DNA from: Bacteroidota bacterium
GTDB lineage: Bacteria; Bacteroidota; Bacteroidia; Flavobacteriales_D; Sanyastnellaceae
Assembly (NCBI GenBank): GCA_027593035.1
Contig: JAQCJQ010000005.1
Span: 1 to 46,195, forward strand
DNA: 46,195 nt
Direction: 5' to 3'
The notes beneath the pieces are model-generated. The model worked only from the letters and a program-made list of their open reading frames with translations. It searched no databases and was not told where the DNA came from. Within the stretch, counting starts at the first letter, position 1. Each line of letters begins with the position of its first letter. Positions 17,694-44,673 of the stretch are shown here, piece by piece. A program made the translations under genes and the position numbers.

Positions 17694-17699
17694 CTCCTC

Positions 17700-20425: not shown

Positions 20426-20431
20426 ATCGTC

Positions 20432-21868: not shown

Positions 21869-21870
21869 AA

Positions 21871-23166: not shown

Positions 23167-24301
23167 CAAACCACTGGAACGGGTCGTGATTTCAGGAGGA
23201 GGGACTGGAGGACACATCCATCCCGCTCTCGCCATCGCGGATGAAATCAAGCGCAGGCATCCCCAGTGCGACATTCAGTTTGTCGGGGCCAAAGGGCGCA
23301 TGGAAATGGAGAAAGTCCCCCAAGCGGGCTATCCCATCACAGGATTGTGGATTACCGGAATTGACCGGAATTGGAGGAGCCTGCGGAATTGGCTCTTCCC
23401 CTTGAAGTTGATTCACAGCCTCATCCAGGCCAGACGCTTGGTCCGGAAATGGAACCCGGAAATTGCCATCGGTGTGGGAGGATTCGCTAGTGGCCCTTTG
23501 CTTCAGGTGGCTTCGCGACGGCGCATTCCCACTGTGATTCAAGAACAAAACTCATTTCCTGGAATTACCAATCGAATTTTGGCCAAAAAAGTGGACCGCA
23601 TTTGCGCGGGATTCCCTGGACTCGACCGCTGGTTTCCTGCCGACCGCATCATCGAAACGGGCAATCCACTCAGAAGCCATGTCGCCGCCCTCGCCAGCGA
23701 CATTCCACCCGAAGTCGTGCACGATGCTCGACATCATTTTGGATTCGAAGGAACGCGCCCGCTTGTGTTTGTCATGGGCGGCAGTTTGGGAGCCTTGTCC
23801 ATGAATGAAGCTGTGCAGCACCTGTGCGACCAGCATCCCGACGGCCTGCCCTTTGATGTCCTTTGGCAATGCGGTGGACGGTATGAAAGCCGTTGTCAAG
23901 CGTGGCTCAAGGATCAGACTTCGAAGGCCTCGCTTCAAGTGCGATGCTTCGGATTCATTGACCGAGTGGATTGGGCGTACGCAGCGGCGGATGTCATCGC
24001 CAGTCGTGCAGGCGCCATGTCCATCGCTGAATTGTCTTTGGTCGGAAAACCGACCATCTTGGTGCCTTCTCCACATGTCGCTGAGGATCACCAGACGCGC
24101 AATGCCCTTTCGCTCAGCGAGCGTGGTGGCGCCATTTTATTGAAAGACCAACAGGTCGTACTCGGATTGGGAGACGCCTTGAAATCGCTCCTTGGCGATC
24201 CGGAAACCTGCGCACAGATGGCCTACGCCATCCAACAGGCCGCGCGTCCCGATGCCGCCTCTCATGTGGTCGATGTGGTCGAATCGCTCATCCAATTGTA
24301 A
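23156..24301 (+). CDS. murG: Lipid II synthase MurG
   Basis: About 381 residues from a GTG at 23156. MurG adds GlcNAc to lipid I on the inner face of the membrane. The N-terminal GGGTGGHIHPALAIADEI and the C-terminal UDP-binding region SRAGAMSIAELSLVGKPTIL, followed by PSPHVAEDHQ, are clear. The start is uncertain. The GTG at 23156 sits 10 bases from the end of ftsW and gives the usual short head before the glycine motif. An ATG at 23093 and a GTG at 23081 are in frame and would overlap ftsW by 74-86 bases. No Shine-Dalgarno decides it. Confidence 0.93.
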   Translation: MNTNKPLERVVISGGGTGGHIHPALAIADEIKRRHPQCDIQFVGAKGRMEMEKVPQAGYPITGLWITGIDRNWRSLRNWLFPLKLIHSLIQARRLVRKWNPEIAIGVGGFASGPLLQVASRRRIPTVIQEQNSFPGITNRILAKKVDRICAGFPGLDRWFPADRIIETGNPLRSHVAALASDIPPEVVHDARHHFGFEGTRPLVFVMGGSLGALSMNEAVQHLCDQHPDGLPFDVLWQCGGRYESRCQAWLKDQTSKASLQVRCFGFIDRVDWAYAAADVIASRAGAMSIAELSLVGKPTILVPSPHVAEDHQTRNALSLSERGGAILLKDQQVVLGLGDALKSLLGDPETCAQMAYAIQQAARPDAASHVVDVVESLIQL

Positions 24302-24307
24302 GTACGG

Positions 24308-25726
24308 ATGGTGCATTTGAAATCCATTTCCACCGTCTATTTCATTGGCATCGGCGGCATCGGAATGAGTGCTCTGGCTCGTTATCTCAAGCGACAACTC
24401 GGCCTCCATGTTGTCGGGTACGATCGGATTGCGTCCCCCGTTACCGATGCGCTGATCGCAGAAGGCATTGCGGTCAATCACGACCACGAGCACTTGCCCG
24501 TTTTCATTGCTTCGCACGCACCGGAATCCCTCCTAGTCGTCCGTACACCGGCGGTTCCATTGGACCACCCCCATCACATCGCATTGGCAAAAAAGGGCGT
24601 GCCAATCCTCAAACGAAGTGAACTGCTCGGAGCCATTGTGCGCGAAACGCCCACACTTGCCGTCGCTGGAACGCATGGAAAAACCACCACGACAGCCATC
24701 TTGGCGCATCTTCTCGATGGATGCCCCGGAAAGTGCAATGCGTTTTTGGGAGGCATCGCGGCGGGCGTAGAATCCAATTTGTACCTCCATCCCAACGCCG
24801 CTTGGACCGTAGTAGAAGCCGACGAATTTGATCGGAGTTTTCTGCATCTACACCCGCAACATGCTGTCATTACGAGCATGGATCCAGACCACCTGGACAT
24901 CTATGGGGATGAACAAACATTCCGAGATGCCTTTCAATTGTTCGCGCACCAAGTAGAAAATGGATGTCTGGTTCACGCTGATGTGAATTGGCCCGACAAG
25001 GAAACCGAACGTTATGGCCTCGCATCCACCCGCAAAGAAGCTGAGGCATGGACCTATGCGGCCATCAACCCCCAAGTCATCGAAGGGGTTTGGATCGCGG
25101 ACGTCCAATTGGGAGACGTCTGGCTGGATGCGGTCGCATTCCCCATGCCCGGTTTGCACAACGTTTCCAATGCACTCGCAGCACTCGCACTCGCACATCG
25201 TGCCGGCGCACCCATGGAAGTGTGCCGACAACGTTTGATGACTTTCCAAGGCGTCCAACGACGATTCACCTATCAAATCCGAGAGGAAGCCGGGGTGTTC
25301 ATTGATGATTACGCCCACCACCCATCCGAACTCAAAGCGGCCATTCAAACGGCACGTTCACAGCATCCAGGCAAGGCCATTACCGGGATATTTCAGCCCC
25401 ATTTGTACAGCCGAACACGGGATCATATGATGGGATTCGCGGCCGAATTGAGCCTCTTGGATCACGTCATACTCCTCCCGATTTATGCCGCGAGAGAAGA
25501 AGCCATTGAAGGAATCGATTCACAAAGGCTGTTTGAAAACATCCCGAACACCGCCAAACATCTCATCGATTCAGAGCGGATATTCGATTGCTTGAAAGCG
25601 CATCCTCCTGAAGTGCTGATGACAATGGGCGCCGGCGACATCGATCGGTACGTGGCTCCATTGAAACAGTGGCTTCTAGAGGACTTGAACCGATTTAAGA
25701 AAACAAAGACAACCACATCCCCATGA
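24308..25726 (+). CDS. murC: UDP-MurNAc-L-alanine ligase MurC
   Basis: 472 residues. It adds L-alanine to UDP-MurNAc. The N-terminal IGIGGIGMSALARYL binds the UDP substrate, the ATP loop GTHGKTTTT starts at residue 121, and VVEADEFDRSFLHL and DDYAHHPSELKA are standard MurC motifs. It lies 6 bases after murG, and its stop overlaps the ftsQ ATG by 4 bases. It acts before MurD, MurE and the missing MurF in the same pathway. Confidence 0.97.
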   Translation: MVHLKSISTVYFIGIGGIGMSALARYLKRQLGLHVVGYDRIASPVTDALIAEGIAVNHDHEHLPVFIASHAPESLLVVRTPAVPLDHPHHIALAKKGVPILKRSELLGAIVRETPTLAVAGTHGKTTTTAILAHLLDGCPGKCNAFLGGIAAGVESNLYLHPNAAWTVVEADEFDRSFLHLHPQHAVITSMDPDHLDIYGDEQTFRDAFQLFAHQVENGCLVHADVNWPDKETERYGLASTRKEAEAWTYAAINPQVIEGVWIADVQLGDVWLDAVAFPMPGLHNVSNALAALALAHRAGAPMEVCRQRLMTFQGVQRRFTYQIREEAGVFIDDYAHHPSELKAAIQTARSQHPGKAITGIFQPHLYSRTRDHMMGFAAELSLLDHVILLPIYAAREEAIEGIDSQRLFENIPNTAKHLIDSERIFDCLKAHPPEVLMTMGAGDIDRYVAPLKQWLLEDLNRFKKTKTTTSP

Positions 25727-26454
25727 TTCAACGCCTCCTGCCCATCGCTCTTTCCGTCCTGCTTTTAGGGACAGCGGGAGCATTGGTTGGATTTGCACTG
25801 AACGAAGAGGCGGATGCGACCTACACGGGATTGGAGGTCGATGTGGAAGAAATCAAGGGCATGTTCTTCGTCGATGCTGCGGGAGTCCGTGACGCCATTC
25901 TCCAGCATGACAGCATCCAAGGGTCATGGGTTCAATCCGTTTCCCTTCAAGAAGTCACCGCTTGGGTTCGTTCGATTCCAGCGGTCAATGACGTCGAAGT
26001 CTATCCTGGACTCGACCGGGTGCTGCACGTTCGCGTTTCCCAAAAAGAACCCGTCGCCCGATGGCATTCGGGGCCCAATGAAGCCGATGTCTACATCGAT
26101 ACGAACGGAGAAGCCTTGCCCTTATCCCCCTATTTCACGGCACGAGTGCCGGTCATACATGCCAAAACAATGGACCAAGCCCAAGAGGCCTTTGCCCTGA
26201 TCCAGGCCACCTGTCAACATCCGATTTGGTCGGCCTTCATTGACCAGGTCGAAGTCGATGCCAACGGCGAGCTCGAAATCATTCCTCGGGTAGGAGGAGC
26301 GCGAGTAGCCCTTGGAGACACCTCCAACCTGGATGCCAAATTGGACAATCTTTTGACCTTCTATCGAGCCCAGATTCGAAGAGGGAATTTGAACGACTAC
26401 CAACGCATCAACTTGGCTTTCGCCGGTCAAGTTGTCGCCCAACGATATTATTAA
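25723..26454 (+). CDS. ftsQ: Division protein FtsQ/DivIB
   Basis: 243 residues. One N-terminal membrane helix at about 5-25 is followed by a periplasmic part. Residues about 38-115 look like the POTRA domain, with the VQSVSLQEVTAWVRSIP and VNDVEVYPGLDRVLHVRV segments. The position between murC and ftsA is canonical. FtsQ links FtsL and the early divisome. Sequence conservation is low in this family, so context carries much of the call. Confidence 0.92.
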   Translation: MIQRLLPIALSVLLLGTAGALVGFALNEEADATYTGLEVDVEEIKGMFFVDAAGVRDAILQHDSIQGSWVQSVSLQEVTAWVRSIPAVNDVEVYPGLDRVLHVRVSQKEPVARWHSGPNEADVYIDTNGEALPLSPYFTARVPVIHAKTMDQAQEAFALIQATCQHPIWSAFIDQVEVDANGELEIIPRVGGARVALGDTSNLDAKLDNLLTFYRAQIRRGNLNDYQRINLAFAGQVVAQRYY

Positions 26455-26475
26455 GACACCGCAATTCACTTTAGA

Positions 26476-27765
26476 ATGGAAATGGATCAACAAGCCCACA
26501 ACGACGAATTGGTCGTCGGTCTCGACATCGGAACAACCAAAATCGCTTGCTTCGTCGGCCGAAGAAACGAACACGGAAAAATTGAAATTCTGGGTTACGG
26601 CAAAAGTGAATCCGTCGGAGTTTCACGCGGAGTCGTGGCCAACATCGAGCGCACTGTGGAGTCCATCCGCAAGGCCATCGATGAAGCTGAACGCACTTCC
26701 GGCGTGGCCATCGAGGTGGTCAATGTTGGCATTGCCGGCCAACACATCAAAAGCCAGCAGACCCGTGGGCAGCGCACACGGGATGACTTGGAATCAGAAA
26801 TTAGCAACGAGGACATCCAAGCGCTGATCCAAGACATGTACAAGCAAGTGATGCAACCGGGAGAAGAAATTCTTCACGTATTGCCACAAGAGTATACCGT
26901 CGACAACGAACAAGGGATCAAGGAACCTGTCGGTATGAGCGGCATCCGCTTGGAAGCCAATTTTCACCTCATCATCGGCCAGATTGCCGCCATTCGCAAC
27001 ATCTACCGCTGCATTCAAAAAGCCAACCTCACGGTCGATCAGTTGATTCTAGAGCCTCTTGCCTCCGCTGCAGCTGTACTGAGTGAAGAAGAAAAAGAGG
27101 CAGGTGTTGCCTTGGTCGACATCGGTGGCGGCACGACGGACATTGCCATTTTCCAAGACGGCATCATTCGGCACACAGCGGTCATTCCATTTGGCGGCAA
27201 CGTGTTGACAGAGGACATCCGACAAGGTTGTCTCATCATGAAGAAGCAAGCTGAGCAACTCAAGCAACGCTTTGGATCAGCCATTTCCACAGAAATGAAA
27301 GACAACGAAATCGTATGCATACCTGGACTTCAAGGTCGCAATGCCCGCGAAATCAGTTTGAAAAATCTCGCCGCGATCATCGAAGCACGGATGACCGAAA
27401 TCATCGAGCACGTCCACTTTGAAATTCGAAATTCTGGTTTTGCCGATCAATTGATCGGTGGGGTGGTATTGACCGGCGGAGGATCCCAATTGCGCCATGT
27501 CACCCAACTCTTCCAGTACGTGACGGGATTGGATTGTCGCGTGGGCTATCCGAGTGAGCACTTGGCCGAGGCACCCGATGCCCATGCCACAGCACCCAGT
27601 TTTGCCACCGGCGTTGGCCTTGTCATCAAAGGCTATGACCGTTTGGCTCCTAAAAGCGATTCCATCAAGGCGGATGACATTCGGAAAGATGCCGAAAAAT
27701 CGCAGCACATACGGCTCATTGACAAGCTCAAGAATTATTTCGTCGAAGAAGAAGAGGAAGATTGA
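26476..27765 (+). CDS. ftsA: Division protein FtsA
   Basis: 429 residues, an actin-like ATPase that anchors FtsZ to the membrane. Phosphate 1 motif VVGLDIGTTKIACFVG, phosphate 2 in VALVDIGGGTTDIAIF and the adenosine loop in GGVVLTGGGSQL are present, and the SHS2 insert lies at about 85-165. The C terminus is a short basic-amphipathic segment (RLIDKLKNYFVEEEEED), suitable as the membrane-targeting helix. An ATG at 26482 is an alternative start. It lies 46 bases before ftsZ. Confidence 0.97.
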   Translation: MEMDQQAHNDELVVGLDIGTTKIACFVGRRNEHGKIEILGYGKSESVGVSRGVVANIERTVESIRKAIDEAERTSGVAIEVVNVGIAGQHIKSQQTRGQRTRDDLESEISNEDIQALIQDMYKQVMQPGEEILHVLPQEYTVDNEQGIKEPVGMSGIRLEANFHLIIGQIAAIRNIYRCIQKANLTVDQLILEPLASAAAVLSEEEKEAGVALVDIGGGTTDIAIFQDGIIRHTAVIPFGGNVLTEDIRQGCLIMKKQAEQLKQRFGSAISTEMKDNEIVCIPGLQGRNAREISLKNLAAIIEARMTEIIEHVHFEIRNSGFADQLIGGVVLTGGGSQLRHVTQLFQYVTGLDCRVGYPSEHLAEAPDAHATAPSFATGVGLVIKGYDRLAPKSDSIKADDIRKDAEKSQHIRLIDKLKNYFVEEEEED

Positions 27766-27811
27766 ATCCTTCCCATTCTAAACACCATTTCATTCCCTGA
27801 ATTCTCCCTTC

Positions 27812-29551
27812 ATGAACGATTACAACAATCCATCAGATTCAAAGCCTGCATTGCACGCACCCATTAAAGTCATTGGCGTCGGAGGTGGCGGATCCAATGC
27901 TGTGAACACGATGTTCAGACGCGGCATTACCGGGGTCGACTTCATCGTTTGCAACACCGATGCACAGGCATTGGAAGCGAGCCCCGTTCCGGTCAAGATC
28001 CAATTGGGAGCGACCCTCACCAGAGGTCAAGGTGCAGGCTCGCTGCCCGAAGTTGGGCGCAATGCTGCCATCGAATCATTGGATGACGTCAAGGAATTGA
28101 TCGGAGCAGACACCAGCATGGTTTTCATCACAGCGGGCATGGGCGGTGGCACTGGAACAGGCGCCGCTCCCGTTATCGCACAAGCTGCTCGCGACATGAA
28201 CATCCTGACCGTTGGAATCGTCACGGTTCCCTTCCTCTTTGAAGGTCGCAGAAGAACGGAACAAGCCAGCACAGGTCTCGCCGAAATGCGCGACGCCGTG
28301 GACACATTGCTCATCATCCGCAATGATAAATTGCGAGAACTGTATGGCAACCTCACCATCCGCAAGGCTTTTGCCAATGCCGACGAAATCTTATGTACCG
28401 CTGCCAAAGGCATCGCTGAAGTGATCACATTGACTGGAGAAATCAATGTGGACATGAATGACGTGAATACCGTTATGCGCAACTCAGGCCGTGCCATCAT
28501 GGGATCCGGAACGGCCTCTGGCCAAGGACGAGCGAGCAAAGCCGTCAGTGAAGCTTTGGAATCGCCTCTGCTCAATGACTGTGACATTACGGGAGCCAAT
28601 TTTGTCTTGCTCAACATCACCTTTGGAACAGAGGAGATTCTGATGGATGAGATCATGGAAATCACCGATATCATCCAAGAATCGGCAGGCCAATCAGCCG
28701 AAGTCATCTGGGGCTATGGTGTGGACGAATCCCTTGAAGATGATTTGTGTGTAACGGTCATTGCAACCGGATTCAAAGGACAAGACTTGGATGGCTCAAC
28801 GACCAAGACGGTACCACGAAAAATCATGCTGCTCGATGAGGAGCGTGAAGTCAAAACGCCTGTGCAGCCCGTGAAACAGCAACCATTAGAAGCTGCGTCG
28901 CAAGAACCCTATCTGCTCAACGAAAAAGAAGCCACCGAATCGGCCGCGATCAGCGGATTCACGCATGAAGCAGCAATTGAAACTCTGGACAATTCAGACG
29001 ATACCGGATTGCATTTCAAATTGCTAAAAACCGAGGATGTTGCGGATGAATCGGCTCCTGCCATCGCTCCTGATTTAGGAAATGACGCCCCTGAAATTAC
29101 GGTCTACACTTTGGACAGCGATCCTTTACCGCTCACCTCAGACAAGCCCAACTTGGAAGGCATTCACTTCCAGGAAAAATCAGAGGCACCCAAAGCACCC
29201 AAAGTTCCAAGCACTCCGCCTTTATCGTTTACCGGAATTTCACGCGAATCGGAAGAAACCAGGCAGCCTGCGGCATCATCCCATTCTGCTCCTGCTGATG
29301 AGACGAAGACTTATGTCAATCGAACAGCGCGCATTCAGCAATACACTCGGAAATTGAAGACGCCCGGAGGACTTGCTGATTTGGAAGCTGAACCTGCTTT
29401 CAAGCGCCGTCAAGTTGTGCTAGACGATGTCGACCATTCTTCAACATCGCAAGTCAGCCGGTTCAACCTCAGTCAAGAAATTGATGAAGAAGGGGAAAGC
29501 CATGTTGAGCTGCGCAATGACAACCCATTCCTACACGATAACGTCGATTGA
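27812..29551 (+). CDS. ftsZ: Cell division GTPase FtsZ
   Basis: 579 residues. The tubulin-like core covers about residues 15-330. The GTP-binding signature GGGTGTG is at 111-117, IGVGGGGSNAVNTMF is near the N terminus, and the T7-loop region NVDMNDVNTVM is present. After the core comes a long, acidic, Pro/Ser/Glu-rich linker of about 200 residues, then a conserved-looking tail ending NPFLHDNVD, the probable FtsA-binding peptide. The core is typical. The long linker is common in Bacteroidota. Its TGA lies just before the ATG of the YqeY-like gene. Confidence 0.98.
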   Translation: MNDYNNPSDSKPALHAPIKVIGVGGGGSNAVNTMFRRGITGVDFIVCNTDAQALEASPVPVKIQLGATLTRGQGAGSLPEVGRNAAIESLDDVKELIGADTSMVFITAGMGGGTGTGAAPVIAQAARDMNILTVGIVTVPFLFEGRRRTEQASTGLAEMRDAVDTLLIIRNDKLRELYGNLTIRKAFANADEILCTAAKGIAEVITLTGEINVDMNDVNTVMRNSGRAIMGSGTASGQGRASKAVSEALESPLLNDCDITGANFVLLNITFGTEEILMDEIMEITDIIQESAGQSAEVIWGYGVDESLEDDLCVTVIATGFKGQDLDGSTTKTVPRKIMLLDEEREVKTPVQPVKQQPLEAASQEPYLLNEKEATESAAISGFTHEAAIETLDNSDDTGLHFKLLKTEDVADESAPAIAPDLGNDAPEITVYTLDSDPLPLTSDKPNLEGIHFQEKSEAPKAPKVPSTPPLSFTGISRESEETRQPAASSHSAPADETKTYVNRTARIQQYTRKLKTPGGLADLEAEPAFKRRQVVLDDVDHSSTSQVSRFNLSQEIDEEGESHVELRNDNPFLHDNVD

Positions 29552-34108: not shown

Positions 34109-35905
34109 TCAAGGACAATCCAAGTTGAAGTCGGTCAATAGAATGAGCAAATCGAAGATGTTGATGAAGCCATCGTTATTGATGTCGTGAGGACACGGGT
34201 CATCAGTTGGCACCAGCACACATAGCAATAACTCAGCATCCCATACGGTCCCAAAACCGCACATTCCCGGGTCCGTAAGGCAACTAAAATCACAACTGCC
34301 GTCATCCTCCATGGCCACGTCATTGTAGTTGCAAGCCTCCTCATACGTACAGCCCAAACAAGGCTCAGGACAGTCCGCTGCGAATGGGTAGAAAAAGCCT
34401 CCGTCTTCGATCACAACGATGTGCTCATCCAACGCCACATCGTAGAGCGTATTGACGATCCCAGACGGCCAGGATACCACTACAGAATCGATTGCCGTTG
34501 CACTGCCCAAACCAAAGTGCTCCCAAGCACTGTTCTGCCCAAGGTAGCTTTCACCTGCGAATCGGACATGGTACTGCATATCTCCACCAGCCCAAACATA
34601 TATTTTCGCTCCGATTCCATCAAAGTTGCTCACGGTACCTTCAGTCGTCACTTTGATCCAATGGTTGTCGTTGGGAGTTCCCTGAAGCATTTGAGCATAT
34701 TGACCAACGCGGTTTGATACCAAATCGGGAAACCCATCCATATTGAAGTCACCCACAGCCGTGGCAAAGGACAGGACATTGTTGTCTGAGAAATCCGACC
34801 CCGCACTGGTAAAAGCCCCACCGTCGTTGTAAAAAAGGCGATCGGGGTGGTCTGTATAGACCGACATCACTTCTGGATAATTCGTGAACACACTGTACCC
34901 CGTGGCTACATGCAAATCCTCGTACCCGTTGTTATCGACGTCCAACCAACTGGCCCCCCAACACACATCATTGACTTGGACACTATCGTTTGGCGTGAAA
35001 TCCAACTCCGGATGCTGAATGGAGAAATTGCCTTCATCGTTCACGAGCAGCCAGTTTCCATCTAAAGCAAATGCCGTCAAATAAATATCCTGGTACCCGT
35101 TGTGATCGAAATCCGCAACCGAACCTGACATGCAGTTGATCATGATGTCCAGGCCAAAATCACTTGCATTTTCCTGAAAAGAAAAAATGGCATTAGGAGG
35201 CTGCTGTTCATAGAACTGATTCGCGTATATCAAACGATCTCGAATGATGTGCAAATCGAGTAAATCGTCTTCATTGAAATCCACCCACATGCTTTGGAAG
35301 CTCTGAATTCCAAATTCATCAACACCTTCAACTTCAGCCACATCTGAAAAGATGGTATTGCCTATGCTCGCGCTCCCCAAATTTCGATAGAGTTCGTTGA
35401 ATGGTACGTCGTCCGTCCAAGACGTATAGTTTGAAATATGCAAATCTAGAAAGCCATCGGCATCGTAATCTCCGAAAGCCGCCCCATAACTTTTGGAAGG
35501 ATATTGATCAAGCCCTGATGAACTCGCAATTTCGGTGAAGCCCGCATTTCCGTTGTTGAGATAAAATCGATTCGGAGCCAATCGATACCCCACAAACAAA
35601 TCCCGATCTCCGTCATTGTCGATGTCTCCCCAAAGGACCATCTTGGCCTCATAGGGATGACTTGGTAGGTTGAGGTCGATCGGAATAAACCCTCCTCCGG
35701 TGCCCTGATAAAATTTCAAGTCCCCCTCAAAATTGGCAAAAGTCAGGTCGTCGATGTAATCGCCTGTAAAATCTACAAAGCTCACCCCGGCACCCAAATA
35801 CCCGCCAAAGTGATTCGTTTCCAACACCACCTGGCTACTGACATCAACCAACTGTGAAAATGCAAGACTCGGCAAAAACGCCAAAGCCAGCAGCAATTGT
35901 GTCAT
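34109..35905 (-). CDS. Secreted VCBS/ASPIC-UnbV protein, paralogue 1
   Basis: 598 residues from the ATG at 35905, which gives a signal peptide ending AFSQ; longer starts reach back into paralogue 2 and lack one. FG-GAP/VCBS repeats with calcium-type loops (DFTGDYIDDL, DIDNDGDRDLFVGY, DYDADGFLDLHI, DFNMDGFPDLVS) form a probable seven-bladed integrin-like propeller to about residue 400. An ASPIC/UnbV domain follows (NFDGIGAKIYVWAGG). Then come one GCT module (34288-34358) and a Cys-bounded EF-hand-like tail to the stop. Ligand and function are unknown; surface binding or adhesion is inference. It lies 56 bases after paralogue 2. Confidence 0.88.
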   Translation of the reverse strand: MTQLLLALAFLPSLAFSQLVDVSSQVVLETNHFGGYLGAGVSFVDFTGDYIDDLTFANFEGDLKFYQGTGGGFIPIDLNLPSHPYEAKMVLWGDIDNDGDRDLFVGYRLAPNRFYLNNGNAGFTEIASSSGLDQYPSKSYGAAFGDYDADGFLDLHISNYTSWTDDVPFNELYRNLGSASIGNTIFSDVAEVEGVDEFGIQSFQSMWVDFNEDDLLDLHIIRDRLIYANQFYEQQPPNAIFSFQENASDFGLDIMINCMSGSVADFDHNGYQDIYLTAFALDGNWLLVNDEGNFSIQHPELDFTPNDSVQVNDVCWGASWLDVDNNGYEDLHVATGYSVFTNYPEVMSVYTDHPDRLFYNDGGAFTSAGSDFSDNNVLSFATAVGDFNMDGFPDLVSNRVGQYAQMLQGTPNDNHWIKVTTEGTVSNFDGIGAKIYVWAGGDMQYHVRFAGESYLGQNSAWEHFGLGSATAIDSVVVSWPSGIVNTLYDVALDEHIVVIEDGGFFYPFAADCPEPCLGCTYEEACNYNDVAMEDDGSCDFSCLTDPGMCGFGTVWDAELLLCVLVPTDDPCPHDINNDGFINIFDLLILLTDFNLDCP

Positions 35906-35961
35906 CAGGGTGCTTTCGGCTCGCGAAAGGATCCCTTTTGTTGCCCTATCAAAGGAGGAGT

Positions 35962-37740
35962 TTACTCTGGACATGGGACGTCGAATTGAGCTAAAAACCA
36001 CAACAAATCTGCCGTATTCACGACGCCATCCTCATTGATATCCGATGGGCAATCACTTACCGGTCCCGCTACACATTGGCCGATCAACGCGTCCCACACC
36101 GTTCCTTCACCACAGCTTAGGCTACCGTCAAAACAACCGAAGTCACAGGTCCCATCATCGGCTGCAGCCTCATCGTTGTAGTTGCACGCTTCAACATAGG
36201 TGCAACCAAAGCAGCCCGCATCCAAACTTGGACAAGGGTTCGGTTCAATGGAAGCTCCTTCGATGAGCACCAAGCTCTGGAAGGACAGGACATCATAATA
36301 TTGATCGACGATACCCGAAGGCCAATGAACGGTCAGTGAATCCAATGTATTCTCCGTTCCTAGACCAAAGGTCTCCCATCGGCTATTCTGTCCCATGTAA
36401 TTTTCACCGCAAAAGGTCATGCGATAGGTCACTTCTCCATTGAAGTATGCTCGGATTTTTGCTCCAATGCCATCCCGATTGCTCTCCACTCCGACCAAAG
36501 ACACCTTGAGCCATTTATTCTGATTGGGAATCCCCTCTAAAACTTGAGCGTACTCGCCAAATCTGTGCGAGACCAAATCAGGAAAACCATCCCCATTGTA
36601 ATCGCCAACGGCCGTTGCAAACGACAACTGATTCGTTTGAAAGATCGCTGCCGTATCCTGAGAAAAGACGCCCTCTACATTCCAATAAAAAGCATTGGGA
36701 ACGTCTGGGTACTGAGCGAACACTTGAGGGTACTGTGAGTAAACACTAAACCCCGTCGCCACATGCAAGTCATCCCACCCGTCATTGTCCGCATCAAACC
36801 AATTGGCCGCCCAGGAGGTCAAATGTAAATCCGTACTGTCCCCCTCTTCCACGACATGCGGTGTAAACGAGCCCCCTGTATTGTTCAATAGAAAATTGCC
36901 TTCGAATAGACCTGCCGTCAGGTACAAATCCAAATCATTGTCGCGGTCATAATCCGCTACCGAAGTTGACATGCAATTGATGGCATAATCCAATCCCCTT
37001 TCATTTGCCACTTCCGTAAATACGCCATCAACCTGCTCGTAGAACCTATTCTCAAAACAGAGGCGGTCTTGAATTAAGTGCAGGTCAAGATTGCCATCCT
37101 CATTGAAGTCGACCCAATGTCCCTGAAAACTGTTATCCACGACCTCTCCCATCGGAGTGTCCAACGTGACATCTTCAAACAGCCCCCCTCCCAAATTGTG
37201 GTAGAGTTCATTGTGAGGGTAATCTTGGCCGAGCACATAATTCGCTACGAACAAATCCAGCAATCCATCCTTGTCGTAGTCACCAAAACTAGCGCCATAG
37301 CTCCGTTGATTTGTCTGTGCGATGCCACATACATCACTGATGTCAACGAGCGTCATTTCGCCGTCATTTCGATACAACCGGTTGGGAGCCAGCCTGTACG
37401 TTACAAATAAGTCTTGATCACCGTCGTTGTCTATGTCCGCCCATAAAATGCCTTTCGCCTCATTCAAATAGGCCGGCATGTTCAAGACCAACTCAGTAAA
37501 GCCCGTTCCGTTTCCTTCAAAGAATTTCAAGACCCCGCCATGATGAGCAAAACTCAAATCATCCAGGCCGTCTCCATTGAAATCCGCCATGCTCATTCCA
37601 GCTCCCCAATTCCCTCCTGTGTGGTCCGTGAAAAGATCCATTTGATTGCTGACATCGTTGAATTGACTCCAACCTGATATGGGCAAAATGAGGGATACAC
37701 CAAGCACGAACCTCATCAAAAAAGACGGAACACGTTTCAT
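35962..37740 (-). CDS. Secreted VCBS/ASPIC-UnbV protein, paralogue 2
   Basis: 592 residues from the ATG at 37740, with a basic head and a signal peptide ending GWSQ; a longer frame upstream is rejected and Met9 is an alternative. Same order as its neighbours: FG-GAP/VCBS loops (DFNGDGLDDL, DIDNDGDQDLFVTY, DYDKDGLLDLFV, DYNGDGFPDLVS), the shared RLAPNR phrase, ASPIC/UnbV (NRDGIGAKIRAYFNG, then ENYMGQNSRWETFGLG), one GCT module and the EF-hand-like tail CPSDINEDGVVNTADLL ending in CPE. Close similarity to paralogues 1 and 3 along the whole length points to tandem duplication. Confidence 0.9.
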   Translation of the reverse strand: MKRVPSFLMRFVLGVSLILPISGWSQFNDVSNQMDLFTDHTGGNWGAGMSMADFNGDGLDDLSFAHHGGVLKFFEGNGTGFTELVLNMPAYLNEAKGILWADIDNDGDQDLFVTYRLAPNRLYRNDGEMTLVDISDVCGIAQTNQRSYGASFGDYDKDGLLDLFVANYVLGQDYPHNELYHNLGGGLFEDVTLDTPMGEVVDNSFQGHWVDFNEDGNLDLHLIQDRLCFENRFYEQVDGVFTEVANERGLDYAINCMSTSVADYDRDNDLDLYLTAGLFEGNFLLNNTGGSFTPHVVEEGDSTDLHLTSWAANWFDADNDGWDDLHVATGFSVYSQYPQVFAQYPDVPNAFYWNVEGVFSQDTAAIFQTNQLSFATAVGDYNGDGFPDLVSHRFGEYAQVLEGIPNQNKWLKVSLVGVESNRDGIGAKIRAYFNGEVTYRMTFCGENYMGQNSRWETFGLGTENTLDSLTVHWPSGIVDQYYDVLSFQSLVLIEGASIEPNPCPSLDAGCFGCTYVEACNYNDEAAADDGTCDFGCFDGSLSCGEGTVWDALIGQCVAGPVSDCPSDINEDGVVNTADLLWFLAQFDVPCPE

Positions 37741-37910
37741 CCAATTCAAGATGAAGTTGACTTCAGAAAGAGCAAAGACATGTAACATACACCGCAATTA
37801 AAACGAATGAGGCCACCCCAAGCGAGGTACTTAAAATAACCTATTCCATTGATAATTCCTAACTTATACAAACAAACAGCCCGCTACCAACAAGCAATCA
37901 CGCGTGAAAT

Positions 37911-39713
37911 TCAATTGGGACAAAGTGTCGCAAAAGACAAAAGCAGCAGCAATAAATCTTCAATATTGACGACGCCGTCCCCATCCACGTCTGAAGGACA
38001 ATTCTCAACACATTGCTGAAGCGAAGCATTCCAAACAGCTCCGTTCGCGCACACATTGTCATTGAACCAACACGAAAAATCACAGGAGCCGTCATCTTCA
38101 GAAGCGTCCGCGTCATAGTTGCATGCAACAGCGTAGGTGCATCCCAAGCAACCATTTGTGCATTGAGCCGCGGTTTCCCCTTCTGTGATTATCAGACTCT
38201 GATTCGCCGCGATATCGTAGTAAACGTCCACAATGCCTGAGGACCATTCTACCTGCATCGAATCAATCTCGGTCTCGACACCTAAACCAAAATGCTCCCA
38301 ACGGCTATTTTGACCGAGGTAATTTTCTCCGCAGTACGTCTCCCGGTAAAACGGAACCCCATCGATCCAAAGCTCCAATTTGGTGCCTACACCGTCACGA
38401 TTGCTCAAGGTGCCTACCGGTCGAATTTTGACCCAACCATTGTCATTGGGTGTGCCGCTCCACACTTTAGCCATTTCACCTATGCTATGAGAAACCAAGT
38501 CTGGAAAACCATCTTGATTCACGTCCCCTGTAGCGGTGGAAAAGCCCAGAGACGAAGTCACATCAAACGTGCCGTCTTCTTCGGTCAACCCACCCATTTC
38601 ATTCATAAACAGCGCATCGTACATATTTGGATACTGAAATAGAACGCTGGGGTAGTCCGTGAAGGCCGCAATACCTGTCGTGACATGCAAATCCTCCCAG
38701 CCATTGCAATCAACATCCATCCAACTTGCAGCCCAACACGTTTCATTCATTACAACGTCCGGGTTGTCATTCAGGGAGTATGCACCCTCACCATTGTTTT
38801 CAAAAAAAACATTTCCTTCAATTCCACCGCTTAAAAAAAGGTCCAAATCTCCGTCCCGATCGAAATCACAGGGACTCGTTGACATGCAATTGATCCCGAC
38901 ATCCAAACCGATCTCACCCGCTATTTCCTGAAAAACCCCTTCACCATTGAAAGTGCCGTTTTTATAAAACAAATTCGGGTAAATCTCGCGGTCCCGAATG
39001 ACGTGCAAGTCCAATGTCCCATCACGGTCATAGTCCATCCATTGTCCTTGGAAACACTGGAGCCAAGCGCCCCCCAAACCCATCTCCGCAGTGACATCTT
39101 CAAACAAGCCTCCGCCTAGGTTTCGATAAAGTTCATTTCCAGGCAGGTCTGACGCGTACGAATAATTTGCTATGAACAAATCAAGTAAACCGTCATTATC
39201 GTAATCTCCATAACAAGCACCAAAACTCCGACGGTTGTCTTGGGCTATGCCACACGACGCACTCACATCAAGCATTGTAAGGTCACCTTGGTTTATATAG
39301 ATTCTATTCGGGGCCAACCGGCAGGTCACTAGCAAATCTTGATCGCCATCGTTATCAATATCTGCCCACAAAATCGCCTTGGACTCTACTGCAGGAAAAT
39401 CAAGCTGAAGATCCAGTTCTTCAAAGATTGCGCCAGTGCCTTCATAAAATCGAAGCAAGCCATTGTGATGGCCAAAACTCAGGTCGTCTTTCCCGTCCCC
39501 ATTGAAGTCAGCAAAACTCAATCCTGACCCCAAGTATCCTCCTGTGTGATCCGTTTGAATCATCAAGGCCTCCGTTACTTCTGCAAACTGCGCCTCACCG
39601 AACAACGGTAAAATGACAGCAACGCAAAACAAGCATGGCTTAAAAAGCCAAGGAGTTCCGCCGTTCCCAATCAAAAGGAAATGAAAGCGTTCAGTAAAAA
39701 CGAAATGCAGCAT
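37911..39713 (-). CDS. Secreted VCBS/ASPIC-UnbV protein, paralogue 3
   Basis: 600 residues from the ATG at 39713. The head is longer than in the paralogues, with the hydrophobic core of the signal at about 25-40 ending GEAQ, so the true start may be an alternative codon further in. Propeller loops include DFNGDGKDDL, DIDNDGDQDLLVTC and DVNQDGFPDLVS. ASPIC/UnbV is seen at NRDGVGTKLELWIDG and in ENYLGQNSRWEHFGLG. The C-terminal GCT module and the tail CPSDVDGDGVVNIEDLL match the other paralogues. It is the first of the three in transcription order, after 280 bases without a gene that hold the terminator of the upstream gene. Confidence 0.88.
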   Translation of the reverse strand: MLHFVFTERFHFLLIGNGGTPWLFKPCLFCVAVILPLFGEAQFAEVTEALMIQTDHTGGYLGSGLSFADFNGDGKDDLSFGHHNGLLRFYEGTGAIFEELDLQLDFPAVESKAILWADIDNDGDQDLLVTCRLAPNRIYINQGDLTMLDVSASCGIAQDNRRSFGACYGDYDNDGLLDLFIANYSYASDLPGNELYRNLGGGLFEDVTAEMGLGGAWLQCFQGQWMDYDRDGTLDLHVIRDREIYPNLFYKNGTFNGEGVFQEIAGEIGLDVGINCMSTSPCDFDRDGDLDLFLSGGIEGNVFFENNGEGAYSLNDNPDVVMNETCWAASWMDVDCNGWEDLHVTTGIAAFTDYPSVLFQYPNMYDALFMNEMGGLTEEDGTFDVTSSLGFSTATGDVNQDGFPDLVSHSIGEMAKVWSGTPNDNGWVKIRPVGTLSNRDGVGTKLELWIDGVPFYRETYCGENYLGQNSRWEHFGLGVETEIDSMQVEWSSGIVDVYYDIAANQSLIITEGETAAQCTNGCLGCTYAVACNYDADASEDDGSCDFSCWFNDNVCANGAVWNASLQQCVENCPSDVDGDGVVNIEDLLLLLLSFATLCPN

Positions 39714-39937
39714 GACGCACAGATAGTCCGTGTCAGCTTCAATTCAGAGGTGACTTAAAAATATAGCTTTAAACCGAAACAACCTAACTCTTGATCACAT
39801 CCGCTTCCGTCAAAAATTCATTTCCATCCCTCCACTCTTCCAGCCAACGCAAATCAACTCCGTTAATGCTGAATAAACTCGGTGCGGACTCTACTCCTCA
39901 ACATCTTCGCACAAAAGCTGAAATAATGCCCATAAAA

Positions 39938-39967
39938 AAAGGGGCCTAGCAAACGCTAGGCCCCTTT
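39938..39967 (-). terminator. Strong Rho-independent terminator of the 1559-residue protein gene
   Basis: The 13-base arms AAAGGGGCCTAGC and GCTAGGCCCCTTT pair perfectly around a 4-base loop. On the minus strand the stem is followed by a run of seven T. It begins 26 bases past the stop at 39994. Confidence 0.93.
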
Positions 39968-39993
39968 CCATAAGGATCGTATCGATCAGAAGC

Positions 39994-42900
39994 TTATTCG
40001 CAAATCGTACCGAATGCACCCAAGAATTGGAGCAAGTCAGCCGTGGTTACAGAACCATCTTCGTTCAAGTCAGCTGGACAAGGATTCGAAAGATCGAATT
40101 CACAAGAACCATCGTCGTTTCCTGCAGTCGCGTCATAGTTCGATGCATCAGCATACGTACAACCAGCGCAATCATCGAACACACATTCTGCAATGTCCAA
40201 GATGTTCGCTGTCTCGTCATAGTTGCAAGCACAAGCGATATCACATCCCTCGATGCAGTTCGCGCCTCCTGTAGAGATGTAAGCAGGGCCATAAAGCTCA
40301 CCACCCGTAATCACTCCACCGAAGACACCGGCGATCGACCATGAAGGCTCAGAGTTGAATATATCATCACCTGTAGTCAAGATATAGCATCCATCATCCA
40401 AGCAATACGTCTCTTGAGCATAGCTACCGGAAAGCAATGATGTTTGAATCACTGTGTTGCCCTCCAAGTCCGTGATGTGGATGTCACAACCTGACCATCC
40501 GTCTCCGAATGAATCGTTCATGGTCACCACTACACAAGAACCGTAGCAGCAAGTTCCATCTTCAATGGTTGCCGTCTCATCATAATCACATGCTGTCTGG
40601 TCTGTACAACCGGCACAAGTTAAGTACTCGCAAGTACCATTCTCATCAGTCGCTTCAGCATCGTAGTTACAAGCGAAGTCGTCCATACAACCACAAGACA
40701 CATCACCCAATCCGAATGGATAAGATTCTGTCACCAAGCTTCCACCGGCACCGCCTTCAGCCAACGTGTTTGTTCCATCGGTTACGCTCCAAGACTGCTC
40801 TTCGCTCCAAAGGAAAGCTCCAGTGAAATCATACGTGTAGCAACCCGGATCCAAACACATCACATCCAAGCCATATTCAGCTCCGCCGTAGTTGTCTTCG
40901 TCAATCATGAACATCGCATCGTCAATCGTACCAGCAATCAGGCTGTTACCATCCACGTCGAATACTTCATAGCCTCCTGCAGAACCGCTGTTGCCACCTG
41001 TCCATCCGTCTCCGAATGCATCGTACATGTTGATGATCAAAGCAATCCCTTCTGGGTTAGCGTCACACGCACATGAAGTGTATTCACAATCGTCAGCATC
41101 AATGTTAGCTTCTGGGTTGTAGTTGCAAGCAACATCAACGAAGCAACCATAAATAGCCTCTTCGCATTCCATTTCAATTTGGAACGAACCACCACCATCA
41201 TAAATACCATCCAAGTCGTATCCGACATAGACGTAGTACGTCATGGCTGGATCTGAAACAAACTGAACAGCTGCGTCATCTTGATCGAAGAAACCACATG
41301 TAGCAAAGCTTCCGTCGCTGATCGCAACTGAGCCGTCTACCTGGTTCACACACGAGAAGTCTCCACAGTCAGCTGTAGCTGAGCTATAGACATGCAATCG
41401 CGTGTCAATCACTGAACCACACGTGTTGATGCTGTGCAATTCGCCTGTACCGGCGAACGTGTACCATACACCTTCATATGCTGGGAACGTCAATTCTGAT
41501 GTTCCGTCTTCAGCAGCCGTACCTGTGCTCGTACCACCAGTACCCGCATATGTTACTCCTGCCAATACTTCGTTTCCGTTGAAATAGATCGTTGCAGTTG
41601 CACCGTTCCATCCATCGCCAAACGAGTCAAAGCCTACGAATGTGAAATCACCTTCAGCCATACCACAAGCCCACTGGCCTGTTGTAGCGGCACCTTCGAA
41701 GACAGTGCCATCAGCATCCGTCAAAGACCATGTGATTTCACCATCCCATGTACCACCTCCTACGATGATATAAGCAGCGTCTTCACCAGCAGCACAAGGA
41801 GCGCAAACAACTTCAGGGAAACCCGTGTTGGTCGCACCACCCATTGAACCTGTAACAACTTCTCCACATGGAAGATCTGCAGCATCAGCACACAAATCAT
41901 TCTCAGGCACTACAGAGTACATGCAAGCACCATCGTCTTGGTTAGCCAAGGCGTCGTAGTTGTCAGCAGCAGCATCTGTGCAACCCAAGAATATACCTTG
42001 AGTCGTGAATTCAAATTCACCACACGTTTCAGCGTTTGTTGTACCTACAGCGAAGTAGTAATCCGTATTTGGCTCCAACGTAATGAAGGACTCAATTGAA
42101 CCAGCACAAACGTCCGTGAAATTGCAACCTACATACGAAGTCAAAGCGTCACAGTCACCTCCAGCCAAGTAAACGGTTAAAGTCAAGTTTCCAGAAGTAA
42201 GGTTCGTTGCGTTAAAGTAGAACGTATCGAAATCTTCACCTGAAACCGCATCCGTGCTGTTAAACGTGAACCAAACTGCATAGTTCGTACCACCGAAGCT
42301 AGGAATAGCCGTTGGTGACGCACAGCAGTTCGTTCCAGTAAACGTTACGTTGTCAATTTGAGGAGTCGCTTCAGCACAGAAATCATTGCTTGGAATCTCA
42401 TCACAAACAGCACATTCTACACTCAACAAGAACTCAGATCCAGAACTGAATGCACTGTACTTCGAAACATAGATGTAGTAGTCTTGACCAGTCGTTGCAA
42501 TGAATGCTACGCTTGACATCAAACCACATGCATCGTCGTTTCCAACGATCAATTCCAATTCACCTTCATCGTTGTACTGGAACACGTGCAATTTCGTGTC
42601 ACTAACAGGATCCGCAAACCCAGAAGTTGAAGTTGGCGTATCACATGTGTTTGCGAAAACCTGCTGATCTGAATCCGAGTTGAATTCATACCATACACCC
42701 GGCGTCGATATTGACGTTCCGAGGAACAGACCCGTCACGCCTTCTTCATCCGATGCGTTGGCCAAGCTGCCGTTAGAAAGTGCTCCACAGTAAACTGCTT
42801 CAGCATCCTCGATGGAGTTGTTGGTTGGAGGACAGATACAAGATCCATCATCAACAGTAACCGAAATGTTGTAGTTGAAACAGTTCGCATCTGTGCAACC

Positions 42901-44673
42901 TTCAAAGTCACATCCACCAGTCAAACCGAAGTCGACAAACCAACCACCGCTAGGGAAGCCAACTGGAGGAGGCAATACGCCATAGTAGTTCGATGCAATC
43001 TGGTCACCATATACTGTACCGAATTGGTCAGTAACGATCATAGCGATTTCATTGTCAGCAGTTCCACCACCGGAGCTCAAAATGTAGCATCCTAAAGGAA
43101 TGCAATGGAAGTCCGTAGCGACATTGTCGACGTACAAATCAGCCTCATCATAGTTTCCTGAAACTGATGTCGCCCCGTCGTAGCTATCGATATAGTAAGA
43201 TGCGCCATTCCAGCCGTCGCCTCCTAGATCGTACATGTCAATGTTCATGACATATGTTCCTGGATCGCAGAAAACACACGAACCTGGGTTCTGCTGTGTT
43301 GCTGTTGGGTCGTAGTTGGCAGCTGAAGTGTCCATACAACCGATACAGCTGTAGTCGCAAGAACCATCGTCCAAGGTTGCGGCCGGGTCATAGTTGCAAG
43401 ACAAGTCGTCTGTGCAACCTGGGAATGCTGGCAAGCAGAAGTCCGTGGATTCGCTTGCACCATATTGAGCACCAGACGCTAGGGTTGTTCCGTTTGCGTC
43501 AGTCACTTCATAACTACCGTTACCATATGAGCAGCAAATACCGTCGCCAAATGAGTCATACATCGTGAACGTATAGCACGTTTCATTGATGCAAAAGTCG
43601 CCACCTACGGAACCTCCGTTAGCAATGGCGTTCCCGGCATCATCGACAAGATCCCAAGATATTTCACCTGGATAGTTGTCTGGAGTGATGGAAATCGTAA
43701 TCGCTTCAAACGCACAAGACTCATCATCAATCTGCGCAGCAGGATCAAAGTTACAAGCCGTTGCATCTGTACAACCTACATACTGGCAAGAACCATCGTC
43801 CTCTGTTGCAAACTGGTCAAAGTTTGACGCCGCAGAATCAACACAACCTGGGAAAGCACAAGCAGCTACCCAGTCAATAGGCGTGTAGCCTGATGCCGCG
43901 CAAGAGCCAGAGCCGTCTGAGTCCATGACGATGTTCACAACACCGGTTGGAGACTCGATAAAGGTGCCAGAGATGTCCTGGTTACCCGCTACAGATGAGA
44001 ATCCTGTTGACCACAAGATGTTGGCCGTAGCCAAGTCCAATCCATCATACACATAGATTTGATCCCAGTAGTCCTCAATTTGACCAGAGTTGATCAACAA
44101 GAAGATGGATTGTCCCGCAGGAGCAACCGCGTAACCATAGGATACAAAGTTTTGGCTATTGCCATAGCAAAAGTTGCCAGCCCAATCGCATGAAGGAAAC
44201 TCGCAAGAGCCATCGTCTTCACCAGCATCTGGATTGTAGTTGATCGCGTCCATGTCCGTGCAACCTGGAATCAATACGACACCAATGCAGAAGTCTGTTG
44301 ATTCAGCTCCACCAAAATCACCGCCTGAAGCGAGGACGTTGCCGTCTACATCAGTCAATGAATATGATCCATAACCATAAGCGCAGCACATGCCATCATT
44401 GTACTGGTCATACATGGTCAATGTGTAACAAGCGTCTACTAAGCACACAACTGCTTCCGCAGTCGTCCCAGAGTAATCACCTTGAGCAGCGGATGCAATG
44501 ACGTTTCCTGCGCCATCGGCAATATCCCAACTGGTTTCACTTGCATAGTTATCGAACACAAGTGACAAAGTCACTTCGTTGGCAGCACACTGCCCATAGG
44601 CCGCGGGTGCTGAGTAAAGATAAAGCGCGAACATCGCTACGATGCCACAACACTTTGTAAACGTGTTAAACAT
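39994..44673 (-). CDS. Giant Cys-rich secreted mosaic protein
   Basis: 1559 residues with a signal peptide ending AYGQ (about residue 28). The body is a mosaic. Twelve short GCT modules (pattern GC-x6-N[YF][DN]-x2-A-x3-DD-x-SC) are spread along it. Six segments contain a [DN]-x-x-[GND]DG[WIM] core such as DSFGDGW, twice with a Cys-Cys pair. A CUB-like stretch lies near 165-265 (DQIYVYDG), and two or three PPC-like beta domains contain VWYEF or VWFTF and YYIYVS. The last GCT module is followed by the EF-hand-like tail CPADLNEDGSVTTADLL. High Cys, Asp and Gly content suggests a disulfide-rich, calcium-binding surface or extracellular protein. No enzyme motif was seen. It has its own terminator and a 359-base upstream gap, so it is likely monocistronic. 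Confidence 0.9.
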   Translation of the reverse strand: MFNTFTKCCGIVAMFALYLYSAPAAYGQCAANEVTLSLVFDNYASETSWDIADGAGNVIASAAQGDYSGTTAEAVVCLVDACYTLTMYDQYNDGMCCAYGYGSYSLTDVDGNVLASGGDFGGAESTDFCIGVVLIPGCTDMDAINYNPDAGEDDGSCEFPSCDWAGNFCYGNSQNFVSYGYAVAPAGQSIFLLINSGQIEDYWDQIYVYDGLDLATANILWSTGFSSVAGNQDISGTFIESPTGVVNIVMDSDGSGSCAASGYTPIDWVAACAFPGCVDSAASNFDQFATEDDGSCQYVGCTDATACNFDPAAQIDDESCAFEAITISITPDNYPGEISWDLVDDAGNAIANGGSVGGDFCINETCYTFTMYDSFGDGICCSYGNGSYEVTDANGTTLASGAQYGASESTDFCLPAFPGCTDDLSCNYDPAATLDDGSCDYSCIGCMDTSAANYDPTATQQNPGSCVFCDPGTYVMNIDMYDLGGDGWNGASYYIDSYDGATSVSGNYDEADLYVDNVATDFHCIPLGCYILSSGGGTADNEIAMIVTDQFGTVYGDQIASNYYGVLPPPVGFPSGGWFVDFGLTGGCDFEGCTDANCFNYNISVTVDDGSCICPPTNNSIEDAEAVYCGALSNGSLANASDEEGVTGLFLGTSISTPGVWYEFNSDSDQQVFANTCDTPTSTSGFADPVSDTKLHVFQYNDEGELELIVGNDDACGLMSSVAFIATTGQDYYIYVSKYSAFSSGSEFLLSVECAVCDEIPSNDFCAEATPQIDNVTFTGTNCCASPTAIPSFGGTNYAVWFTFNSTDAVSGEDFDTFYFNATNLTSGNLTLTVYLAGGDCDALTSYVGCNFTDVCAGSIESFITLEPNTDYYFAVGTTNAETCGEFEFTTQGIFLGCTDAAADNYDALANQDDGACMYSVVPENDLCADAADLPCGEVVTGSMGGATNTGFPEVVCAPCAAGEDAAYIIVGGGTWDGEITWSLTDADGTVFEGAATTGQWACGMAEGDFTFVGFDSFGDGWNGATATIYFNGNEVLAGVTYAGTGGTSTGTAAEDGTSELTFPAYEGVWYTFAGTGELHSINTCGSVIDTRLHVYSSATADCGDFSCVNQVDGSVAISDGSFATCGFFDQDDAAVQFVSDPAMTYYVYVGYDLDGIYDGGGSFQIEMECEEAIYGCFVDVACNYNPEANIDADDCEYTSCACDANPEGIALIINMYDAFGDGWTGGNSGSAGGYEVFDVDGNSLIAGTIDDAMFMIDEDNYGGAEYGLDVMCLDPGCYTYDFTGAFLWSEEQSWSVTDGTNTLAEGGAGGSLVTESYPFGLGDVSCGCMDDFACNYDAEATDENGTCEYLTCAGCTDQTACDYDETATIEDGTCCYGSCVVVTMNDSFGDGWSGCDIHITDLEGNTVIQTSLLSGSYAQETYCLDDGCYILTTGDDIFNSEPSWSIAGVFGGVITGGELYGPAYISTGGANCIEGCDIACACNYDETANILDIAECVFDDCAGCTYADASNYDATAGNDDGSCEFDLSNPCPADLNEDGSVTTADLLQFLGAFGTICE
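40096..44267 (-). repeat. Twelve GCT...DDGSC modules in the giant protein
   Basis: Approximate module positions in DNA are 44197-44267, 43784-43852, 43708-43778, 43345-43420, 43274-43344, 42835-42903, 41922-41989, 41088-41157, 40620-40691, 40541-40613, 40185-40255 and 40096-40171. Each spans about 23 residues with two conserved Cys, an Asn-aromatic pair and an acidic DD/DE before the second Cys. Modules 5, 8, 9 and 11 are degenerate at the acidic pair. The intervening domains differ, so the modules look like spacers between folded domains. Confidence 0.8.

Follow-up and report, generated by a model that had tools for sequence, protein, structure and literature searches.

A C-terminal cassette with a dockerin-like loop alternates with the type A T9SS domain on an exported hydrolase body and is expanded in one Flavobacteriales family

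Substrates of the type IX secretion system (T9SS) are usually counted through the known families of C-terminal domains (CTDs). Types A, B and C are named as T9SS signals in a review of the system (PMC10202324), the main text of which does not contain the term 'dockerin', and a second article, naming types A and B, describes the type A CTD as an Ig-like beta-sandwich (PMC12618676). The type B and type C CTDs (PF13585/TIGR04131 and the ChiA type) are alternative C-terminal T9SS signals beside type A, and in this respect they are comparable to the tail presented here. The other relevant group is the dockerins, specifically dockerin type I (PF00404) and the NCBI family NF041540, whose name, 'GC-type dockerin domain-anchored protein', itself points to an anchoring role for a two-loop relative of our tail; as a term, 'GC-type dockerin' was not found in the open-licence literature.

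The window, i.e., the whole stretch of DNA that was analysed, comprises 46,195 nucleotides (positions 1 to 46,195 of contig JAQCJQ010000005.1, assembly GCA_027593035.1) of a Bacteroidota bacterium assigned to the Sanyastnellaceae. The four tail-bearing ORFs named in the initial annotation are present in it, and they and their C-terminal elements are as follows.

34109..36001, minus strand: VCBS/ASPIC protein 1 (P0001, 630 aa), exported body; Pfam FG-GAP_3 3.8e-26, UnbV_ASPIC 3e-17
34292..34354, minus strand: GCT module of P0001, GCTYEEACNYNDVAMEDDGSC; from the sequence
34112..34195, minus strand: single dockerin-like loop-helix tail of P0001; tail profile E 7.0e-16, Cys gap 26
35962..37797, minus strand: VCBS/ASPIC protein 2 (P0002, 611 aa); from the sequence and Pfam
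36145..36207, minus strand: GCT module of P0002; from the sequence
35968..36051, minus strand: single dockerin-like loop-helix tail of P0002; tail profile E 5.9e-19
37911..39713, minus strand: VCBS/ASPIC protein 3 (P0003, 600 aa); from the sequence and Pfam
38082..38144, minus strand: GCT module of P0003; from the sequence
37917..38000, minus strand: single dockerin-like loop-helix tail of P0003; tail profile E 7.8e-16
39994..44673, minus strand: GCT-rich mosaic (P0004, 1559 aa) with a signal-peptide-like N-terminus; from the sequence
40102..40164, minus strand: last GCT module of P0004, GCTYADASNYDATAGNDDGSC; from the sequence
39997..40080, minus strand: single dockerin-like loop-helix tail of P0004; tail profile E 6.3e-17

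The first three were indeed confirmed as VCBS/ASPIC paralogues, with FG-GAP_3 and UnbV_ASPIC matches in each, and P0001 starts with a signal-peptide-like stretch (MTQLLLALAFLPSLAFSQ); P0004 had been described as an unrelated mosaic and has no Pfam match above cut-off. The ends of P0001 to P0004 all consist of a GCT module, a Cys-Pro, one loop of the dockerin type whose position 12 is Asp, a short hydrophobic helix and a last Cys (in the order given: CPHDINNDGFINIFDLLILLTDFNLDCP, CPSDINEDGVVNTADLLWFLAQFDVPCPE, CPSDVDGDGVVNIEDLLLLLLSFATLCPN, CPADLNEDGSVTTADLLQFLGAFGTICE), and eleven columns are invariant among the four aligned tails. The shared ending thus stands as first described, except that the final Cys lies one or two residues from the end and not zero to two, and that P0004 contains several GCT modules instead of one, the last one alone being part of the cassette. 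As had been noted, no usual T9SS CTD accompanies these proteins; PF18962 has no match anywhere on the window's contig (C35). A second small motif, resembling C-G-x-G-T-V-W-D-x(6)-C, lies between the GCT module and the loop (window 35965-36219, 37914-38168 and 34112-34366); it is also found in loci L049, L152, L183 and L280, and is kept in L187 despite a missing GCT module.

A profile was built from the four window tails and used to search the window's own genome at E<=1. The E values of the window tails (5.9e-19 to 7.8e-16) come from a profile made of those same tails; taken with the 37 further matches in a total of 41, they indicate a similarity far beyond chance. When the weakest match (C109, E 0.23) is dropped, the remaining 40 fall in 30 ORFs, and in 25 of these the loop lies within 10 residues of the C-terminus, a position count that is less biased than one from best hits as it was made at a lax threshold. 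The cassette had been presented as a feature of four proteins with one loop each; this is correct for the window, but elsewhere in the genome it recurs, also in a two-loop form, the 25 terminal-loop ORFs comprising 16 with a single loop and nine with two loops in tandem. All 25 aligned terminal loops share the first Asp, the twelfth Asp and the last Cys. In the 16 single-loop tails the two Cys are, without exception, exactly 26 residues apart and probably form a disulfide, and a GCT module precedes 15 of these tails, as against three of the nine two-loop tails. By a crude rule, a signal-peptide-like start was assigned to 23 of the 30 loop ORFs and to 43 of 60 CTD ORFs of the same genome.

The expectation that the tail would be nearly always C-terminal therefore holds for 25 of the 30 ORFs and fails for five, in which the loop is either near the N-terminus (L044, L046 and the minus-strand ORF of L041, also listed as L063) or internal (L057 and L062). 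These five copies speak against the tail being purely a signal for secretion from the C-terminus. In L044, L046 and L063 (contigs C45, C94 and C151), the loop comes just after the signal-peptide-like start and ahead of the body, i.e., an N-terminal use of the same loop; the bodies, judged by eye, are presumably trimeric-adhesin-like, lamin-tail-like or FISUMP-like. L057, along with L136 of genome G005, has an internal GCT module plus loop followed by what appears by eye to be a second hydrolase-like stretch, an arrangement conserved in two genera. Two other ORFs, L053 and L055, have two-loop tails without a GCT module; PF11617, the MopE-type putative metal-binding motif, lies ahead of the loops of L053, and a stretch resembling it was seen by eye in L055.

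The loop had been likened to that of EF-hands and dockerins, but single. The likeness is supported by its 12 residues and by a comparison of the tail profile with solved structures, in which dockerins matched best (2y3n_B, E 2.1e-9; 1ohz_B, E 4.1e-6) and the best EF-hand match was calmodulin (E 0.0031); the singleness is not general, since two-loop forms account for nine of the 25 terminal tails. The window tails share with dockerin type I the 12-residue loop and the Asp residues at positions 1, 5 and 12, but are only half as long, with one loop-helix repeat instead of two, and P0001 reaches 12.2 bits against the PF00404 cut-off of 22.9, while P0002 to P0004 have no listed match. With the GC-type dockerin they share the loop-helix pattern, but they have a single loop, preceded by a GCT module; with NF041540, for which the cut-off is 29 bits, P0002 reaches 15.2 bits, and no match is listed for the other three. 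Seven of the nine two-loop tails, in contrast, align with almost the whole of NF041540 and score 20.0-29.3 bits, one of them passing the cut-off (29.3 versus 29 bits), and altogether 13 of the 25 terminal tails match it at E<=1. Since the two-loop tails match this family and the single-loop tails of the window do not pass, the single-loop cassette resembles one half of a GC-type-dockerin-like domain in which the GCT module would have replaced the first half. We infer from these similarities that the cassette is related to dockerins and that its loop is a putative calcium-binding one. An AlphaFold model of the cassette, made with six sequences, was poor (pLDDT 65.5, one helix), and a Foldseek search with this low-confidence model returned no hit.

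The cassette resembles the type A CTD (PF18962/TIGR04183) in that both are C-terminal, are found on exported bodies, some of which they share, occur in the same genomes and join the body at the same junction; they are unlike in that no sequence match exists between them, the tail being a loop plus helix, together about 28 residues long, behind a Cys-rich module. None of the families listed for the 25 terminal tails is a type B model (PF13585/TIGR04131). The window's genome contains 65 matches to PF18962 (10 of them below cut-off) as well as SprA, and it is thus a T9SS genome. None of 60 CTD ORFs in this genome has a loop match reaching E 0.01 (best, 0.14), although such mutual exclusion in one protein is partly trivial, both elements being C-terminal; exchange of the two on the same body is a stronger test. 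The bodies of the loop ORFs were therefore compared with those of 60 of the 65 CTD ORFs, five CTD matches being left out, and paralogues were accepted at E<=1e-10 over at least 150 residues. A CTD-bearing body paralogue was found for 14 of the 25 C-terminal-loop ORFs as against one of 29 other window ORFs, this control being mostly housekeeping, mostly non-exported and unmatched for export; two of the 14 (L052 and L054) depend on L133, the CTD of which, at 25.1 bits, falls short of the Pfam cut-off, and what P0004 has in common with its CTD-bearing match is confined to repeat-rich stretches. The best pair, L050 with the loop and L093 with the CTD, is 63% identical over 432 aligned positions.

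The body of L093, an exported hydrolase with similarity to BD-FAE, was traced through 101 genomes of the window's family. Among the best 30 loci, 28 are complete (L093 included), and they divide into 13 with the CTD and 15 with the cassette, none having both and none having neither. A wider set of 51 loci, consisting of the best 30, 20 chosen from other genera and for long frames, and L050, gave 27 with CTD, 19 with cassette, one with neither and four open. It is to be noted that the CTD calls on this body and on the VCBS body below used a profile built from fetched CTDs and not that of Pfam, and that this profile misses at least one apparent CTD (L252). In a tree of 51 rows from the 47 non-open loci (four with a duplicated body contribute two rows each), the cassette label required two changes and the CTD label three, and the starred branches force at least two. 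Outside the cassette clade, which spans the genera g1, g3, g9, g10 and g14, 14 rows have the CTD and one has neither; inside it, a single CTD clade of 13 rows belongs entirely to the window's genus. These results document repeated exchange between the cassette and the type A T9SS CTD on one body. As the tree has a midpoint root and one very long row (L337), the direction, from CTD to cassette and back, is tentative.

On the VCBS body of the window the exchange was seen on a smaller scale, since the 80 relatives comprise two with the cassette, nine with the CTD, 67 with neither (L252, a CTD by eye, is counted here) and two open. The 67 are mostly from phyla that are not known to have a T9SS. 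The two closest relatives, both titled as Flavobacteriales MAGs, end in the cassette, and those with the CTD include L190 and L251, titled Zixiibacteriota and Ignavibacteriales. CTD and cassette interchange directly behind the ASPIC domain. Five Bacteroidota relatives (L194, L210, L212, L216 and L222) stop right after this domain with neither tail, so that neither tag is obligatory on the VCBS body. Among the open-licence papers listed, neither an exchange with the CTD nor a half-dockerin plus GCT form was found in titles and the start of abstracts.

Considering that relatives of some of these bodies carry the type IX secretion tag at the same place, the tail is probably an alternative surface tag. 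Stated in full, our reading is that of a portable C-terminal cassette that substitutes for the type A T9SS CTD and serves in both sorting and surface attachment, with putative calcium binding, disulfide, surface location and passage through the T9SS; we give it roughly an even chance. The cassette would consist of the last GCT module followed by a single calcium-type loop and helix between two Cys, and in it the GCT module may take the place of a first loop lost from an ancestor that had two. Export by Sec would come first, and the cassette would then act as the type A CTD does for the relatives, delivering the protein to the cell surface, presumably through the T9SS, and holding it there. Of the possible routes the T9SS is the most probable, as it is present in the genome and as several of the bodies match those of CTD proteins; no other general route across the outer membrane is known to us for such proteins in these genomes. 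A sorting or anchoring tag, as originally proposed, thus survives as the best reading, in view of the C-terminal position in 25 of 30 ORFs, the different bodies and the alternation with the type A CTD, except for the five non-terminal loops, which are unlike a pure C-terminal secretion signal. As a compromise, we prefer a calcium-dependent docking module that also marks proteins for export. Same-body exchange could alternatively mean a changed destination.

A bolder version, possible but less likely than not, holds that the tail is a new class of T9SS sorting signal, i.e., a helical, disulfide-closed half-dockerin whose fold has no relation to the beta-sandwich of the type A CTD, and that it arose from a two-loop GC-type dockerin, has its own shuttle or a calcium-dependent surface receptor, and spread over many exported proteins in several genera of the family. 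If the tail is an equivalent tag, counts based on known CTD families would, in several genera, be too low by dozens of surface proteins for each genome. Moreover, a beta-sandwich export tag and a calcium-loop tail would, if this is true, be exchangeable on one body, offering a way to find out what is recognized by the T9SS and by its partners at the surface.

The initial annotation had also expected the tail to be limited to T9SS genomes. SprA is indeed present in all 11 Bacteroidota genomes with a hit in the phylum search, but this is weak evidence, since SprA is found in 266 of the 345 genomes searched and eight of the 11 hits are weak; co-occurrence was accordingly rejected as proof of a T9SS tag. 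Within the window's family, SprA is present in 99 of 101 genomes, the two misses being genomes of 62% and 77% completeness. PorV and PorP/SprF are present in all 27 genomes examined for them. An expansion of PorP/SprF or PorV as the receptor was considered and set aside, as their copy numbers in these 27 genomes (5-18 and 1-4 per genome, respectively) are unrelated to loop numbers and alike in high- and low-loop genomes. Regarding the T9SS components previously named for the organism, GldC is over the TIGR03515 cut-off and GldB over that of Pfam but under that of NCBIfam TIGR03514, whereas the supposed PorT-like protein is only a generic OMP_b-brl_2 barrel in Pfam, with no NCBIfam match.

The main rival to the preferred compromise is pure docking, in which the outer membrane is crossed by means of another determinant and the loop binds a surface receptor in the manner of a dockerin with its cohesin, its position being irrelevant. 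Such a role would fit the solved dockerins as best structural matches (2y3n_B and 1ohz_B), the NF041540 matches of seven of the nine two-loop tails, and the existence of N-terminal and internal loop copies. It would, however, leave unexplained the strict choice between CTD and cassette on the L093 body; a docking module could well stand upstream of a CTD, yet none of the 60 CTD ORFs has a loop at E 0.01, and the either/or pattern thus counts against it. Two-loop dockerins next to cohesin genes had been named as a finding that would speak against a tag; two-loop forms do exist here, and one scores as a GC-type dockerin, but a profile search with PF00963, which would miss a divergent cohesin, had no match in the window's genome or in 13 genomes of the same genus, and a cohesin partner for the tails was therefore discarded. 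Across the family, nine of 101 genomes have a PF00963 match, five of them over cut-off, and the many-loop genome G009 is among the nine. Overall, we consider pure docking rather doubtful.

Alternatively, the cassette could be a structural cap, or a calcium-dependent folding or stability element, with no role in sorting, in which case loss of the CTD would yield a periplasmic protein. The fixed Cys pair and calcium-type loop would suit a small stable knot, GCT modules are found also mid-protein, away from the C-terminus, and both tails are missing from some relatives of the VCBS body. This is nonetheless unlikely, given that the cassette is mostly confined to the last residues, on 25 proteins of one genome, and that one tree requires at least two exchanges with an export tag, while a mere cap would not need to exclude the CTD. 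Lastly, that the tails are partial or decayed two-loop dockerins of a cellulosome-like system is very improbable and was already disfavored, for although two-loop forms occur in the same genome (nine of 25) and one of them exceeds the GC-type dockerin cut-off, the single-loop form is the commoner one, is stereotyped (Cys gap of 26 in 16 of 16) and is kept across genera, which points to selection rather than decay, and the genome has no PF00963 cohesin.

Several genera within one Flavobacteriales family show an expansion of the cassette. In a search of 345 Bacteroidota genomes, with up to 24 candidates scored in each, 11 had matches at E<=0.001, which were strong only in the window's genome, G005 and G141 (one match), and weak (E 4e-5 or worse) in the other eight. 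At the level of the order, with up to 41 candidates scored per genome, 76 of 199 genomes had matches, and 65 of these belong to the window's family, where G048 is the only genome listed without one; the 11 outside the family have one to three matches each. The number per family genome ranges from one or two (genera g4 and g20) to at least 41. Among the matches listed in a deeper profile search of up to 150 candidates per genome, in which a two-loop tail counts twice, G043 has 90, G012 has 89, G005 has 68, G579 has 58 and G580 has 52, G579 and G577 being treated as one genome on account of their identical match places. The same search found no loop match in Meridianimaribacter flavus (G581) and Flavobacterium caeni (G588), one weak match in each of two Planctomycetes, and six or seven weak matches in two Poribacteria. 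Long loop-bearing frames, of 1562-1568 aa, have shorter ones of about 610-620 aa, also with the loop, no more than about 4 kb away in G024, G574 and G579.

With the same profile, 75 further loci, mostly from related genomes, were collected and found to contain 74 distinct ORFs, namely 54 with a single C-terminal loop, five with two C-terminal loops, 13 with an internal loop and two cut by the end of the locus. These position counts are biased, the loci having been picked as the best hits of a terminal-loop profile. The 13 ORFs with internal loops are all outside the family and look like ordinary dockerins. The family loci account for 53 single-loop and two two-loop C-terminal ORFs and one internal cut ORF (L136 of G005). 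All 53 single-loop ORFs, two of which (L153 and L155) are own-genome ORFs already counted above, have both Cys, and 49 have the GCT module.

A few genomic surroundings are also worth recording. In G043 (C2:734414-827872), fourteen listed loop matches, all on the minus strand and in frames of 826 to 3076 residues, lie within about 94 kb of a single chromosome. In the window itself, the exported cluster is located shortly behind division and cell-wall genes (15567-29551), which encode a PASTA-bearing transpeptidase, a Mur ligase, FtsA and FtsZ. A Sortilin/glycosylhydrolase-like protein at 5750-8671 of the window has a signal-peptide-like start and neither CTD nor loop, and its paralogue L109 carries the CTD.
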